From Zhongshania aliphaticivorans (GTDB lineage Bacteria > Pseudomonadota > Gammaproteobacteria > Pseudomonadales > Spongiibacteraceae), in the NCBI RefSeq assembly GCF_902705875.1, contig NZ_CACSIK010000001.1, forward strand, positions 357,558-421,557: a DNA stretch of 64,000 bases. Direction: 5' to 3'. Numbering within the stretch: position 1 is the stretch's first letter; each line of letters begins with the position of its first letter. Under the pieces are notes generated by a model. It was not told the DNA's origin and made no database searches. It saw only the letters and a list, made by a program, of their open reading frames with translations. A program made the position numbers and the translations under genes. Of this stretch, positions 42,730-47,594 are shown one piece after another.

Positions 42730-42902
42730 GGGGATTCCGTGTGTTTTATGTATTATACAGAGGGGCAATTTGCCGAAATTGATTGTCTAGGATTATATCT
42801 GTGGGGATATGAGTCTAGCCTAGGGTAATCTAATTTGGCTAAGGAGCAAAACAAAATTGAATTTGTAAGACTGTTGTAACGACCCGCTGGCAATCTTCAC
42901 TG

Positions 42903-43255
42903 GGAATCAACAATTCCAAGGGATGGAGAAGGAGCTCGGCGGTTTTCTATTCTGGGCTGGGGAATCGAGATAAAGCAGAATCGTTTGCTGTATTAAACGG
43001 ACTTTCTACGCTGGAGATGGCGCAGGGAGGGAAATGGTTAGATGGGCAAAGTCTTTTTGGGCCAGACAGTTCCTTGACAACGGATCAGGCTACCGATATC
43101 TGGACACGCTTATCGCAAAGGTTTGCGGAAGAGGCTTCAGGACTGCTGTTTGATTTGTAGAGGGAGCAAGGTTTGAAGGCATTTTTAATACAATTGAGTT
43201 TTCGGCTCTCTAAGCAAACCCGGATATAGTAAATGTTCTGACGGAAGTTTTTAGT
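42903..43255 (+). pseudogene. Decayed polymorphic-toxin C-terminal domain
   Basis: Frame 1 is open from 42903 to a TAG at 43158-43160 and reads SAVFYSGLGNRDKAESF, then TLEMAQGGKWLDG, then IWTRLSQRFAEEASG. After a single-base shift near 43140-43157 the reading continues as GIFNTIEFSAL, an in-frame TAA (43211-43213), then ANPDIVNVLTEVFS. The pattern (GGK-x-LD, W-x2-x-S-x2-FA-x2-ASG, FN-x-IE-x2-AL-x2-NP) is the one I remember from C-terminal toxin domains of RHS and filamentous-haemagglutinin proteins. There is no start or N-terminal delivery part. Two lesions make it inactive as it stands. Confidence 0.65.
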
Positions 43256-43507
43256 GTGTTTACAAAAATAAGTCCTCAGAAAGTGCGTCACACCTCTGGG
43301 TATATAGTGCAAGTTATAGATAGATTCCACGTCGAGTATATTCATGGAAATAATAGGGCCGTTGCCGAAGTGGAATTCGCACCAATAGTCGGTTTATACA
43401 GAAATAGCTTAATTATACTAAGTGGTCTTTAGGGCGATAGGGACGTTATTCTAAAGAAAATTGTATCGGGCTTGGACGAAATGGGAGCGGCAGTTGAGAT
43501 ATGCTAG
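43256..43507 (+). pseudogene. Immunity-like gene interrupted by one stop
   Basis: A GTG at 43256 opens a frame reading FTKISPQKVRHTSGYIVQV, then DRFHVEYIHGNNRA, up to a TAG at 43430-43432. The same frame goes on as GDRDVILKKIVSGLDEMG and ends in VEIC at a TAG (43505-43507). One point change would restore an 84-codon gene directly after the toxin remnant. The toxin-then-small-gene order, and the short compact product, suggest an immunity protein. This is an inference; no family name is claimed. Confidence 0.55.
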
Positions 43508-43742
43508 AACGAAATACTCACCGTCTATCTATCAGCATTTGGTTCACAGCTGTTCAGCTTCTTAAGCTTTGCGCTATTGCCCAATTGGCGTAAGGCCTAA
43601 AATATCTGAGTAACTACTAATCCCATCAGGCACTACTATATTTGAAGGCTTTGCGGTGGCGCATTGGGTGGGGTTTGGAGAGCTAATGGGGTGGGGGAAG
43701 TTAAATTTACATCTCGGGTATTGATACAAGTTGGATAAAGTA

Positions 43743-44045
43743 ATGCTAAATATTTATTTGGATGAATTGCATGCGCTATTAGAGTCAGTTGGCGAGAAAA
43801 AATGGGGAGAAAAATTTAAATATGTCTCAAGCGAGAGCGTTCTGGATAATCGTAGGCAATACCTAGAAAAAATTATTGGTCTCTATGGTGGGGCTGGCTC
43901 TCTCAATGATTTGATGATCTCGGAATTGAACGGCCATACTATCGGATGCGGTTCTGAGTCAGCCTTGAATAAGGACATGAATTATTTACGAAGTAAGATT
44001 TATAACTTGGCGAAGAAGGAGCTTCGTGAGTTAGTTGATTTATGA
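43743..44045 (+). CDS. Orphan immunity-like protein
   Basis: 100 residues from the ATG at 43743, with GGATAAAG upstream; a TTG at 43731 is a possible alternative. The product has the pattern LDELHALLESVGEKKWGEKF and IIGLYGGAGSLNDLMI, which resembles small DUF-type immunity proteins found after toxin genes (DUF6966-like by memory). A short open stretch just before it (43646-43738, ending GEVKFTSRVLIQVG) may be the last piece of its toxin, but is too short to be sure. The frame is intact. Confidence 0.55.
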   Translation: MLNIYLDELHALLESVGEKKWGEKFKYVSSESVLDNRRQYLEKIIGLYGGAGSLNDLMISELNGHTIGCGSESALNKDMNYLRSKIYNLAKKELRELVDL

Positions 44046-44186
44046 TGATTTAATGAAATAATTTCAGGCGTTTGCAGTCGATTGGCGTGGATTTGTTTGC
44101 ATTCACGTGATAATCAGCGAGGCGTTAGCGTATACACTTTTGCGCCTGGAAATGTAACTTGCACGTCGCTATAGGGAAGTTGTGAT

Positions 44187-45316
44187 GAAGTTACGGGAAG
44201 AACAATCCACTGGTCGGTACTGACCCCAGCGGTTATGATTTTTTGAACGAAGTATTTGACGATTTCCTCGGTCTTGACCACGTTAATCCACAATTGGCAC
44301 AGATGGTCGTTGGTGTTGCCTCAATCTACTGTGGAGCTGCTTACGCTGCTTGTGTTGGGGCTGGAACAGCTGCAATTGCCAGTGGAAATGGGGCGTCAAC
44401 TGCAGATGCCCTGCAAGCTGGAGTGATTGCAGGTGTTTCGGCGGCTGCATTCTAGGCCGTAGCTCAAGGGTATTCTGGAGCGGATTGGGCAACGACTGGT
44501 GGCAGTATCGGTATTGGCGGAGGTGCCTATCTCAATGCTGGAGGTTTTGCTGCACTCATGGCAACTCAGGGAGCCGTTGGGGCGTCATGTCTGTACTGCA
44601 AGGCGGCAAGTTTGGACACGGCTTTGCTTCAGCAGGGTTTTCGAAACTCGCATCTCCGTTCTTGCCGACAACCGGCATTGGGTTCGAAGGATTAGACATC
44701 GGTCAGGTGACTGCTGCTGCAATTATCGGTGGTACAGCCAGCGAACTAAGCGGTGGGAAGTTCGCTAATGGGGCAGTGACTGCTGCATTCGTAAACTTGT
44801 TTAATCAGCAGCGGGCGGGGTATTTGGAAAGAGGTAGGAAAATGGATCGGGAGGAGTATGATTCGCTTTACAGGCTAGGTAAAAGAATTAGCGCTTGGTT
44901 TGGCGGTAGATACTCCGACATGAGTCGGCCTAACGCGGCGAATTACTTCCGGGATGGAAGTCGCCCCCCATGCATGACTGGCGAATGTTCTATGAACATA
45001 GCAAGCGTACCTGCCGATAGTCCGAATAGGCTTGCATATGATCTTGCTGTCGATAAAAGTCTCGCGAATATCGGGAAGGCAACATTGTCTGCTTTGGGCC
45101 CCGTTGGTGCTATTAGTTCTAGCTGGGTTATCTATAACTCTGTAATGGCAAATCCAACAATGGTTGAGGTTGAGGTTGAGGTTGAGGTTGAGGTTGAGGT
45201 TGGGGTTGGCTTCCTTTGACGGAATGTTACCCGGAGTCCCCGCAGGGGGGGCAGCATCTGCCGGTTGGTTTTTTGGAACATTCACAGGAATCGAACCGGC
45301 AGAATGGTTAAGGTAA
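44187..45316 (+). pseudogene. RHS-repeat core end plus toxin tip, broken by stop and frameshifts
   Basis: The frame begins in YGKNNPLVGTDPSGYDF, the conserved end of the RHS core. A TAG at 44453-44455 interrupts it (AAAF-stop-AVAQGYSG), and a one-base shift near 44582 is needed to go on into GVMSVLQGGKFGHGF and the Gly/Ala-rich segment. The tip starts at about NQQRAGYL (44810). A third shift near a hexamer repeat moves the reading from the frame ending at 45219 to the frame that encodes GMLPGVPAGGAASAGWFFG and stops at 45314-45316. That stop overlaps the next ATG (TAATG). No N-terminal RHS part is present, so this is an orphan tip. Confidence 0.8.
45162..45209 (+). repeat. GGTTGA hexanucleotide repeat
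   Basis: Six perfect copies of GGTTGA (45162-45197) followed by two GGTTGG copies. It encodes alternating Val-Glu in the current frame, close to the tip C-terminus. Hexamers change length without changing frame, so the repeat itself does not phase-switch; the nearby frameshift must be a separate event. Confidence 0.9.
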
Positions 45317-45540
45317 TGGAAAACAAGTCATCTAAGATCGAGCTAGCTCTACCTTTTATTATTACTGTTTTTATGGGGGGCACGGGAATCCGGTTGTGGT
45401 TCCAAGAATGCATCTCGACTAATAACGGAACGGTATGTTTTGGCGAGTGGCACAAGCCAGCAGGAATATTGTTAGTTTCTATATCTATCGTTTGTGCCTA
45501 TTGGATTTATCGAGGTATATTCAAAAAGCCAAATGAATAA
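45316..45540 (+). CDS. Two-helix membrane protein, probable immunity partner of the RHS tip
   Basis: 74 residues from the ATG at 45316, which shares its A with the TAA of the restored toxin frame. Two membrane helices lie at about residues 9-27 and 49-67, with Cys32 and Cys41 in the loop between them. A start 17 codons earlier (TTG at 45265) would lie inside the toxin end and is rejected. Start-stop overlap with a hydrophobic toxin tip is the usual layout for a membrane-acting toxin and its immunity protein. Confidence 0.6.
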   Translation: MENKSSKIELALPFIITVFMGGTGIRLWFQECISTNNGTVCFGEWHKPAGILLVSISIVCAYWIYRGIFKKPNE

Positions 45541-45636
45541 AAAAGGTAAACATATATGACCCCTATACTTCCAGGAGAGACTGCAAAGTGAGCAAGAATT
45601 TCTGAAGAGGTCGGAGCGATATAGGTAGATGTTGAT

Positions 45637-45780
45637 ATGAATAAGATGTCGTTTAAAATCAAAAGCCTACGTACTCTGGTCTTGTTGATACTTGCTAGCC
45701 TTACGGGATGTATGCAGCTTGGTAGTAAACCTTTTTCAATTCCTGAAAATGCATCCTTCTGTATATCAGATGGCGTGTAG
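45637..45780 (+). pseudogene. Truncated lipoprotein gene
   Basis: 47 codons: a basic start (MNKMSFKIKS), hydrophobic stretch, lipobox LTGC (Cys at about residue 25), then SIPENASFCISDGV and a TAG that belongs to the incoming IS end. The stop and loss of the rest are explained by insertion at about 45776. Its position in the array suggests another immunity gene, but that is a guess. Confidence 0.55.
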
Positions 45781-45942
45781 TGGCACACTAAATTTGGCCA
45801 CCTAATTAGAGGTGATAAACTCACCGTCATTAACTAGGTGCCATTTATGTCTAAAAGAATCAGACCCACATACTCCCCAGAATTTAGACTCGAAGTAGCC
45901 CAGGAAGTTGTCGATAAAGGGCGCGGTATTCGAGATATTTGA
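45776..45942 (+). mobile_element. Left end of an IS3-family element with the start of its orfA
   Basis: TGTAGTGGCACACTAAATTT begins an IS3-type terminal repeat (CACTAAATTTGGCCACC). After 71 bases an ATG at 45847 opens 31 codons reading MSKRIRPTYSPEFRLEVAQE, the typical N-terminus of IS3-family OrfA. It ends in GIRDI-stop where the family would continue with the helix-turn-helix. The right end, orfB and a second inverted repeat are absent, so this is a deletion remnant. Confidence 0.75.
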
Positions 45943-45962
45943 AAAGAAGAGTGAAATATTCA

Positions 45963-46526
45963 ATGAGTGACGAAAAAGAAAGGTTAGGAAGTTTCCCATT
46001 TGTCCTTGGGGGGATGTCTTTTATTCCTATGGTTGGAGTGGTATTTGGTATTGTTTCAATTGGTTGGGGGCTGTTTTCAAAAAGAAAGGGCGGGAAAAAA
46101 TTAGCCCTCATAGGGCTGGGAGGCATTTTATTTACAGTGCTATTGTATTTTGGACTATTTCTTTTTGGTTTAGTGATGCGGGGGGAGGGTGGTAGCTTCT
46201 TGAAGAAGATATTTCCAAGCATGGCATTAAATTCTTTGGTTCATGCTGTCGAGGTGTATAAAGACCAGCATGGTGAATATCCAGAGTCATTGGAAGCTCT
46301 TATGCAGTTAGCGCCTGAGAATTCGAGTTTTACTGTGTTGGTATCTAAGGGCGGTGTATTAGGCGGGAGTTCACAGTATTATTATGAAGTAGTAGACGCC
46401 GATCATTACTACTTATTGGATATGGGAAAGGATGGCAAACCGTTTACGTTTGATGATATTTTTCCAAATGAGCAGTTATCGCGACAAGGCAGAACTGGTT
46501 TGATGAAAAAAAATAACTTGAATTAA
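45963..46526 (+). CDS. Membrane protein with GspG-like C-terminal domain, probable immunity protein
   Basis: 187 residues from the ATG at 45963. Two membrane helices (FVLGGMSFIPMVGVVFG and LALIGLGGILFTVLLYFG) precede a soluble domain resembling the C-terminal part of the major pseudopilin GspG (LVHAVEVYKDQHGEYPESLEAL, YYEVVDADHYYLLDMGKDGKPFTFDD, broken here by other residues). No prepilin peptidase site is seen at the N-terminus, so it is not a pseudopilin. Similar proteins occur after RHS toxin ends. Its own toxin is missing; the IS remnant lies just upstream. Confidence 0.6.
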   Translation: MSDEKERLGSFPFVLGGMSFIPMVGVVFGIVSIGWGLFSKRKGGKKLALIGLGGILFTVLLYFGLFLFGLVMRGEGGSFLKKIFPSMALNSLVHAVEVYKDQHGEYPESLEALMQLAPENSSFTVLVSKGGVLGGSSQYYYEVVDADHYYLLDMGKDGKPFTFDDIFPNEQLSRQGRTGLMKKNNLN

Positions 46527-46576
46527 GGGTTAAAAATATTAATTTCCAGTTTAGTAGTAATGGTTTCATACAATAG

Positions 46577-47032
46577 GGAAGATTATACGGCGACGAATTT
46601 TTCGGGAAAGTTATTGCGGGCTTTGCGGGCGTGATTTGAGTATGACCGATTGCGACTTTCCCAGTAGGTAATGATAGTGAAATTACGGGGGTGTACGATC
46701 TGCTAAGTTACTTCACTAGAATGGGCTGCTGTGAATGTTAGCGCAGGTTTGACTGTTGGGTCTTTAGTCTGGGGTCCGATTGGTGTTGTTTCAGGTGTCA
46801 GGAGTTCTATTATAATCGGAGTGTTGGTGATTATACAGCCAATGAAAGTGGTTTTAATTTTGATCTTTTCAATTTTTCCTCGGCTTTTGACCCTGAGCAT
46901 AAGGGGAAGTTTGGTTTTAATGTTTAGGCAGTTGCTAGTTATGAGTTTGGCGGGTCTATTGAATGGTCGTCTTTTAGAAGCTTTTTTAGGCTAGATACAC
47001 TTGGTTTAGATTATACCGCGTCTGGGTTCTAA
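46577..47032 (+). pseudogene. Second decayed polymorphic-toxin C-terminal region
   Basis: Pieces in two frames join into one reading: LYGDEFFGKVIAGFAGVI, two stops, PVGNDSEITGVYDLLSYF, then NVSAGLTVGSLVWGP in another frame (46731-46795), then YNRSVGDYTANESGFNF, an in-frame TAG (46925-46927), and SYEFGGSIEWSSF to a TAA at 47030-47032. The long, coherent Gly/Phe/Ser-rich readings on both sides of each lesion are hard to explain by chance. Resembles RHS-associated toxin tips. It is followed 69 bp later by a small membrane-protein gene. Confidence 0.6.
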
Positions 47033-47101
47033 TTTTTTTGTAAAGGAAAGTTTGTTTTATGTCCTAGGGGCTGGGATAGAATTTTGATAAAGGTTTTTTC
47101 G

Positions 47102-47551
47102 ATGATTTCAAAACGATATGCGTTTACGGCTATGAGTAGTGGGTTATACTTATTTAAGTGGTTGATACTGTTATTCGAAGATGTTGATGAATTAATGGGG
47201 CGGAAAAAATACAATATTAAAGTAATTACAAGGATTATAGCGTTTTCGTTATTTGTATATATTTCACTTCTAGTATCAAGCTTTTGGTTTTTTTTCAACG
47301 AAAGTGAATTTTTTTCTTCTATTGAAATTGCTAAAATTTTGCTTTATATGAGCTTGCTATTATTTTTTTCTCTTGCATTATTGTTGGTTGTTATTTACAG
47401 GGATGTATTGGTAATTCAAAGCAAGAAAATTAATATTACTGGTATACTTTTAATTGTTGGCTTAACCTTTTTCTTTTATAGCTCATTTCCTTATGTTCAA
47501 GAGGAAATTAACGATCTTAAATACCCAAGAGATGAAATCAGTAAAAGATAA
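47102..47551 (+). CDS. Multi-pass membrane protein, probable immunity protein
   Basis: 149 residues from the ATG at 47102, with AAAGG nine bases upstream. Three to four hydrophobic helices are visible (VITRIIAFSLFVYISLLVS, ILLYMSLLLFFSLALLLVV, ITGILLIVGLTFFFYSSF). The sequence is strikingly AT-rich compared with neighbours, a sign of foreign origin. It follows a toxin remnant on the same strand and is the last member of the array. Immunity function is inferred from context. Confidence 0.55.
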   Translation: MISKRYAFTAMSSGLYLFKWLILLFEDVDELMGRKKYNIKVITRIIAFSLFVYISLLVSSFWFFFNESEFFSSIEIAKILLYMSLLLFFSLALLLVVIYRDVLVIQSKKINITGILLIVGLTFFFYSSFPYVQEEINDLKYPRDEISKR

Positions 47552-47594
47552 AAGTAGTTTATAGGTGGTTTAGTATGGGTTTAGGTGATAGAAA

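Follow-up and report, generated by a model that had tools for sequence, protein, structure and literature searches.

What remains of the toxin and immunity genes that seem once to have lain between rlmA and an AAA ATPase gene in Zhongshania aliphaticivorans, and are any of them still kept for use? The locus lies in a window of 64,000 nucleotides (contig NZ_CACSIK010000001.1 of assembly GCF_902705875.1, positions 357,558 to 421,557; all coordinates below are those of the window), of which a preliminary description had called 42903-47551 a graveyard of polymorphic toxin tips with surviving immunity-like genes. We read the stretch, with a probability of about 85%, as a decayed array of orphan modules of the rearrangement hotspot (RHS) or contact-dependent growth inhibition (CDI) kind, each made of a C-terminal toxin tip and a small immunity gene, with no main gene. 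Three broken toxin ends had been proposed. Homology bears out two of them, tip 1 through an ADP-ribosyl-cyclase profile and tip 2 through an RHS junction and relatives of its pre-toxin region in toxin proteins, and the term graveyard does not extend to tip 3. The small genes behind the tips are all on the plus strand, as described, and the reported lack of a main gene in the window also held, with no RHS-repeat match in the whole assembly.

Two toxin tips and the genes behind them

Tip 1 (42936-43252, plus strand) is identified by homology as a wrecked ADP-ribosyl-cyclase (CD38-like) toxin domain, whose first part stays in a single frame up to about 43157. Ten intact ADP-ribosyl-cyclase tips, the window excluded, were made into a profile; its single match in the six frames of the window was at tip 1 (E = 1.6e-23), and the remainder of the domain follows immediately downstream, shifted to the next frame and interrupted by an internal stop. 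A Dyella toxin aligned with the window across both frames (E = 8e-18), its two parts in order and 49% and 57% identical, with the stop in the second. Among 273 other genomes, three have toxin ends that match the open piece 42936-43157, as does one plasmid protein, from Hymenobacter (E = 0.007). When a five-row profile, one row of which was the window piece, was searched against the PDB, the matches were 9ro8, named ADP-ribosylcyclase toxin (E = 3.4e-12), 9ouf, with the molecule name ribonuclease (E = 1.1e-11; the code occurs in the accessible part of PMC12356396), the uncharacterised 5bnf (E = 0.00026) and, weakly, CD38 chains (E = 0.018-0.1). When one relative of tip 1 was searched against the PDB as a single sequence, 9ro8 came second (E = 2.6e-6); an engineered TPR protein at the top (E = 1.6e-7), with no stretch passing alone, was judged spurious.

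A scan of named genomes for tip 1 gave 98 pattern stretches, 12 of which encode a relative, although two of these loci probably come from genomes already counted (L104 with G403, L099 with G364; G and L numbers are our labels for genomes and loci). The carriers include filamentous hemagglutinin (FHA)-repeat proteins of Alteromonas and Dyella (Pfam match in two of five scanned) and, at L057, a protein with an RHS core recognised by eye. Related ADP-ribosyl-cyclase toxins consume NAD(P), according to the accessible parts of PMC12605009 and PMC12356396. A whole tip 1 would by analogy have done the same, and its immunity protein would have blocked it.

That immunity protein was encoded at 43256-43504 (plus strand), a gene that homology and position both mark as tip 1's own and that is broken by a stop at 43430-43432. 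A profile of five intact immunity genes had a single match in the six-frame window, from 43256 onward (E = 1e-5), and the Dyella immunity protein aligns from the same position through the in-frame stop (E = 5e-7). Module 1 is therefore real, with its toxin and immunity halves both dead. Members of the family stand directly behind the tip in five of the 12 loci (L096, L097, L098, L099 and Dyella L103), the toxin frame of L099 being itself interrupted in the record, and also in G328, whose member served as the query. The search for tip-immunity pairs elsewhere, which the preliminary description had proposed as a check, thus succeeded for tip 1; the relative found for the gene behind tip 2, described below, has no tip. 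None of the five intact members of the tip-1 immunity family has a Pfam match, and hence none matches Imm74; ADP-ribosyl-cyclase toxins would seem to have an immunity family to which no Pfam model responded.

Tip 2 (44189-45316, plus strand) is an orphan RHS tip. It has the RHS junction motif NNPL..TDPSGY at 44204, the motif's one occurrence in the six frames of the window, and a pre-toxin region at about 44587-44836, behind which its own toxin part would lie; the motif was not found for tips 1 and 3. Of a 210-residue piece (44587-45216), roughly the first 70-109 residues have matches in 21 of 292 other genomes of the order; no congener is among these, and the matching open frames reach 3510 residues. 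Separate pieces of tip 2 give matches likewise, and the same junction motif occurs in 11 of 17 fetched loci that match tip 2, loci whose RHS nature was not Pfam-scanned. Another match of tip 2 is a Janthinobacterium plasmid protein that carries the annotation RHS repeat protein. It has a strong codon-position bias, and its disablements, by eye, are one in-frame stop, at 44453, and two frame changes. Tandem GAGGTT hexamers occupy 45160-45212 within the tip, near the last frame change.

The final stop of tip 2 overlaps by one base (TAATG) the ATG of an intact 74-codon membrane-protein-like gene (45316-45540, plus strand), as one would expect where toxin and immunity gene are coupled, and the 74-codon gene is a candidate immunity gene whose pairing with tip 2 we infer from this overlap. 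In congener G001 it has an intact relative of 75 codons (48% identity over 63 residues, E = 3e-22), which stands in a row of defence-like genes, by Pfam match of GmrSD restriction, DUF559 nuclease-like and HEPN type (L137, 4379-9081). Further relatives were found neither among 127 loci outside the own genome nor on plasmids. Differences between the two genes fall at 38, 34 and 60% of first, second and third codon positions. The ratio of nonsynonymous to synonymous substitution rates (dN/dS), run over 73 codons, gave dN = 0.47 with dS saturated, so the method returned no value in the true frame; in shifted frames of the alignment dN/dS was above 1 and the third-position pattern was gone. From this pattern and the tip-less copy it follows that the family has been constrained and can live without a tip. 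The copy in G001 fits a stored immunity gene and equally a gene that is not an immunity gene at all. What the pair of loci offers is a small membrane-protein gene that is coupled to an RHS tip here and tip-less among defence-like genes in a congener.

The insertion, its other genes and the missing carrier

The array forms part of an insertion at 42730-47594 (no strand assigned), 4865 bp between two minus-strand genes, rlmA and the AAA ATPase gene, both open. The comparison drew on 12 congener regions in which AAA matched in full; G003, G006, G009, G011 and G014, with a weak ATPase match only, were left out, and G018 and G019, which belong to two other genera of the family and where AAA alone was seen, were not comparable. 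The matched ends of rlmA and AAA lie 51-106 bp apart in seven of the 12 (G002, G005, G008, G010, G015, G016 and G017), and with the two genes adjoining there, comparison with the nearest congeners marks 42730-47594 as an insertion. In one region, that of G004, rlmA was not found beside AAA. The gap is 2.2 kb in G001 and 1.0 kb in G007, G012 and G013, filled by other genes: by eye, an OmpA-like/cupredoxin-like protein in G001 and a glycosyltransferase-like protein in the other three. As different genes occupy it in these genomes, the site may take up DNA repeatedly. The array was inserted between the two flanking genes, its modules presumably derived from RHS or CDI loci by C-terminal displacement or transfer of tips. 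In a scan of 18 genomes of the genus, with up to 16 candidates scored per genome, the inserted DNA recurred only in its insertion-sequence (IS) part, as a 50-bp match in G001, within the relative there of 45316-45540, and, in G010, as a 45-bp match located on a hexamer repeat. An Rfam scan of the DNA gave no match.

Four small genes in the insertion are intact, 45316-45540 among them. Another, at 43743-44045 (plus strand), belongs to DUF6966 (PF22294; Pfam E = 1.5e-10), a family for which no naming paper turned up. It has relatives in one of 213 other genomes (G211) and on two plasmids. On a Klebsiella plasmid (L095, 5968-6297) the relative is a gene cassette with attC-like sites in an array behind an integron integrase; in G211 (L093, 6287-10832) nine small same-strand genes, the DUF6966 gene included, stand behind a gene that by eye is a large ATPase-like one, with no obvious integron. 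The intact 187-codon gene at 45963-46526 (plus strand) is hydrophobic in its first half, by eye, and weakly like T2SSG in its second (E = 0.022, and 0.00075 for its relative in G158; both below the Pfam cut-off). Its one full-length homologue, 40% identical, is in G158, and seven further matches are weak and partial, in frames of 405-439 residues. By eye, a group II intron-type reverse transcriptase precedes the G158 gene (L092, 698-2825) and an IS110-like transposase follows it. A dN/dS run between these two genes (182 codons) gave dN = 0.66 and saturated dS, and no value was returned. For the T2SSG-like and DUF6966 proteins, the structure models had a mean predicted local distance difference test score (pLDDT) of 55.9 and 54.8, too poor for a fold search. 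Scanning the small genes against Pfam, NCBIfam and PHROG yielded nothing beyond DUF6966 and the weak T2SSG resemblance.

Between the tip-2 neighbour and the T2SSG-like gene, what looks by eye like the start of a lipoprotein gene (45637-45780, plus strand), with a sub-threshold match to a putative immunity lipoprotein family (E = 0.14), is cut by an IS fragment. The fragment (45774-45936, plus strand) is the left-end remnant of an insertion sequence, of IS3 type by eye (HTH_Tnp_1, E = 0.011, below the cut-off), and related copies with both reading frames occur in congeners. Last in the insertion, 70 bp after the claimed tip 3 (46577-47032, plus strand), comes the fourth intact gene (47102-47551, plus strand), membrane-protein-like and preceded by an AAAGG ribosome site seen by eye; it has no relative in 389 other genomes or on plasmids. 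Tip 3 itself, a patchwork over two frames with stops, remains unproven as a toxin, and since such a patchwork can arise by chance when the frame is freely chosen, we do not count it as a toxin end.

No full-length carrier gene lies upstream in the window, and a search of the genome for RHS repeats, which did not extend to CdiA or FHA, gave no match; the modules appear to have no delivery gene now and to be mostly eroding. Among 18 genomes of the genus, this one included, RHS repeats occur in five (G001, G003, G007, G008 and G016), and VipB, a sheath protein of the type VI secretion system (T6SS), exceeded the cut-off in none, with one sub-threshold match in G010. In G016 an intact gene with RHS repeats and Pfam matches to SpvB and the TcdB mid-region has behind it a small gene, then an orphan tip that shares the junction sequence of tip 2, and lastly a second small gene. 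This is the usual arrangement out of which a relic of this kind would arise. In congeners G008, G007 and G003 (L120, L121 and L122), RHS proteins of about 1750 aa are encoded by the last gene of a Tad-pilus-like run and have a prepilin-like start (both by eye); a Pfam scan found RHS repeats and a Tle1-like lipase domain in those of L120 and L122, and in L122 the lipase tip recurs in an extra copy, which a small gene follows. Among the paper titles listed, Tad pili are named in contact killing, but a link to RHS is not.

Decay, retention and the rival explanations

Several results weigh against an array of toxin and immunity modules. The toxin part of tip 2 (44842-45216) has no match in 223 other genomes, and tip 3 has no homologue in the same number of genomes, on plasmids or in Pfam. 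The immunity profile found no member in seven of the 12 tip-1 loci. No toxin tip was recognised by eye around the DUF6966 relatives, whether in the cassette array or in other settings, and within 16 kb of the G001 relative of 45316-45540 there is neither an RHS junction nor a match to any tip piece of the window. For none of the four intact small genes is an intact toxin pair known, and each is a candidate immunity gene only. The preliminary description had spoken of surviving immunity-like genes beside broken toxins; four small genes are indeed intact, but the one gene whose immunity function is provable, behind tip 1, is dead.

Disablements, counted by eye, number 10 in 1895 nt of tips and 2 in 1920 nt of small genes (p = 0.018), the latter two being the stop in the tip-1 immunity gene and the cut in the lipoprotein-like gene. 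Without tip 3 the counts are 5 and 2 (p = 0.13); the excess in tips is modest and rests on an unproven tip. Setting the four intact genes against every wreck yields p = 0.0027, although these genes were chosen after the fact. Open frames of 195 and 155 aa were reached in 0.2% and 0.4% of 500 plus-strand shuffles, the figure of 0.4% applying to a frame as long as that of 47102-47551; frames of 104 and 91 aa were reached in 17% and 38%, and their length alone is not unusual. The four genes are weakly biased by codon position (p = 0.076-0.64), and strong constraint on them is not favoured by this, though the genes are short. At the pooled rate of disablement a single gene would escape with a chance of 5.6-31%, and all four jointly with a chance of 0.0004 (0.017 at the tip-2 rate), figures that apply to genes picked as intact.

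These numbers bear on whether the small genes are kept or have simply been missed. That disuse has left the entire stretch to decay, the intact genes being short targets not yet hit or recent arrivals, is a plausible account to which we give a little under even odds. It agrees with the breakage of the tip-1 immunity gene and the lipoprotein-like gene, with the IS fragment inside, with the failure to find RHS or VipB, and with the single-gene chances and weak codon bias just given; the low joint chance of escape speaks against it, tempered by the selection of intact genes. Alternatively, dispensable toxins may decay while selection by toxins of siblings or neighbours keeps the intact small genes, an explanation that we hold only tentatively. 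In its favour, four of six small genes are intact and 10 of 12 disablements are in tips, another species of the genus has an intact version of 45316-45540 with differences mostly at third positions, and the RHS repeats in congeners make it plausible that attackers exist; precedents, in the accessible parts of the sources, are immunity arrays of Vibrio cholerae (PMC5361080), a Salmonella islet (PMC7400221), bee-gut bacteria (PMC8125069) and a functional orphan CdiI (PMC3150448). Set against this are the two broken small genes, one of them the sole proven immunity gene, the loss of significance without tip 3 and the lack of an intact pair tying any surviving gene to a toxin. Moreover, constraint between species reflects the past of both lineages and not the time since the tips broke. 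Some of the small genes may be kept because they neutralise neighbours' toxins, and protection against siblings is hypothetical; that erosion has not yet reached the intact genes is at least as likely as that they are kept as a shield. A more specific version, in which three or four immunity genes (the two membrane proteins, the T2SSG-like and the DUF6966 gene) are selected against congeners' toxins as a passive shield while toxin halves and outdated immunity genes rot, seems to us unlikely. Were it true, 45316-45540 would be a genus-shared shield gene, already stored in a defence cluster in G001, and the islet would be a readable fossil record of past local enemies.

Two further explanations were considered. 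The small same-strand genes, that of DUF6966 included, might have arrived as integron cassettes, as the Klebsiella array with its integrase and attC-like sites could suggest. We reject this as very improbable, given that toxin tips with junctions are not cassettes; the stretch also showed no attC-like site, a weak argument because the scan was strict and of low sensitivity (one site found in the control array). Sequencing or assembly errors could make intact tips look broken, and a single genome represents the species. The assembly, however, has 3.98 Mb in 7 contigs with a completeness of 100 and the flanking genes are open, while the tips hold several stops and frame changes and a neighbour is cut by an IS remnant, which makes this scarcely credible. 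For the decayed array, then, toxin and immunity halves can be followed into decay at one place, with relatives lacking the insertion for comparison. The case could serve to test whether immunity genes outlive toxins, for which one genome is too few.

Known systems

Loci of this kind are already known: orphan modules and retained immunity genes are documented in the accessible parts of PMC3150448, PMC8125069, PMC5361080 and PMC7400221. Tip 1 is homologous, over two frames, to the solved toxin domains of the ADP-ribosyl cyclase (ARC) toxins Tac1 and ARCtox (PMC12356396 and PMC12605009, as far as these were accessible), but here the domain is broken. According to the same part of PMC12356396, ARC toxins linked to CdiA or to the type VII secretion system adjoin Imm74 proteins and T6SS-linked ones adjoin another family; the immunity family found here, with no Imm74 match, is unlike that of the former two groups. 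The orphan RHS and cdiA-CT modules described in the accessible text of PMC3150448 and PMC8125069 resemble the stretch in that tip 2 starts at a junction motif, small same-strand genes stand behind the tips and an IS remnant lies between, and differ from it in that here no main gene is beside the modules, the genome has no RHS repeat and the tips are decayed. With the immunity arrays and defence islets of V. cholerae (PMC5361080) and Salmonella (PMC7400221), as those sources present them in the parts at hand, the stretch shares small genes that may outlast their effectors, whereas here the wrecks of the toxins are still in place and the sole proven immunity gene is dead.

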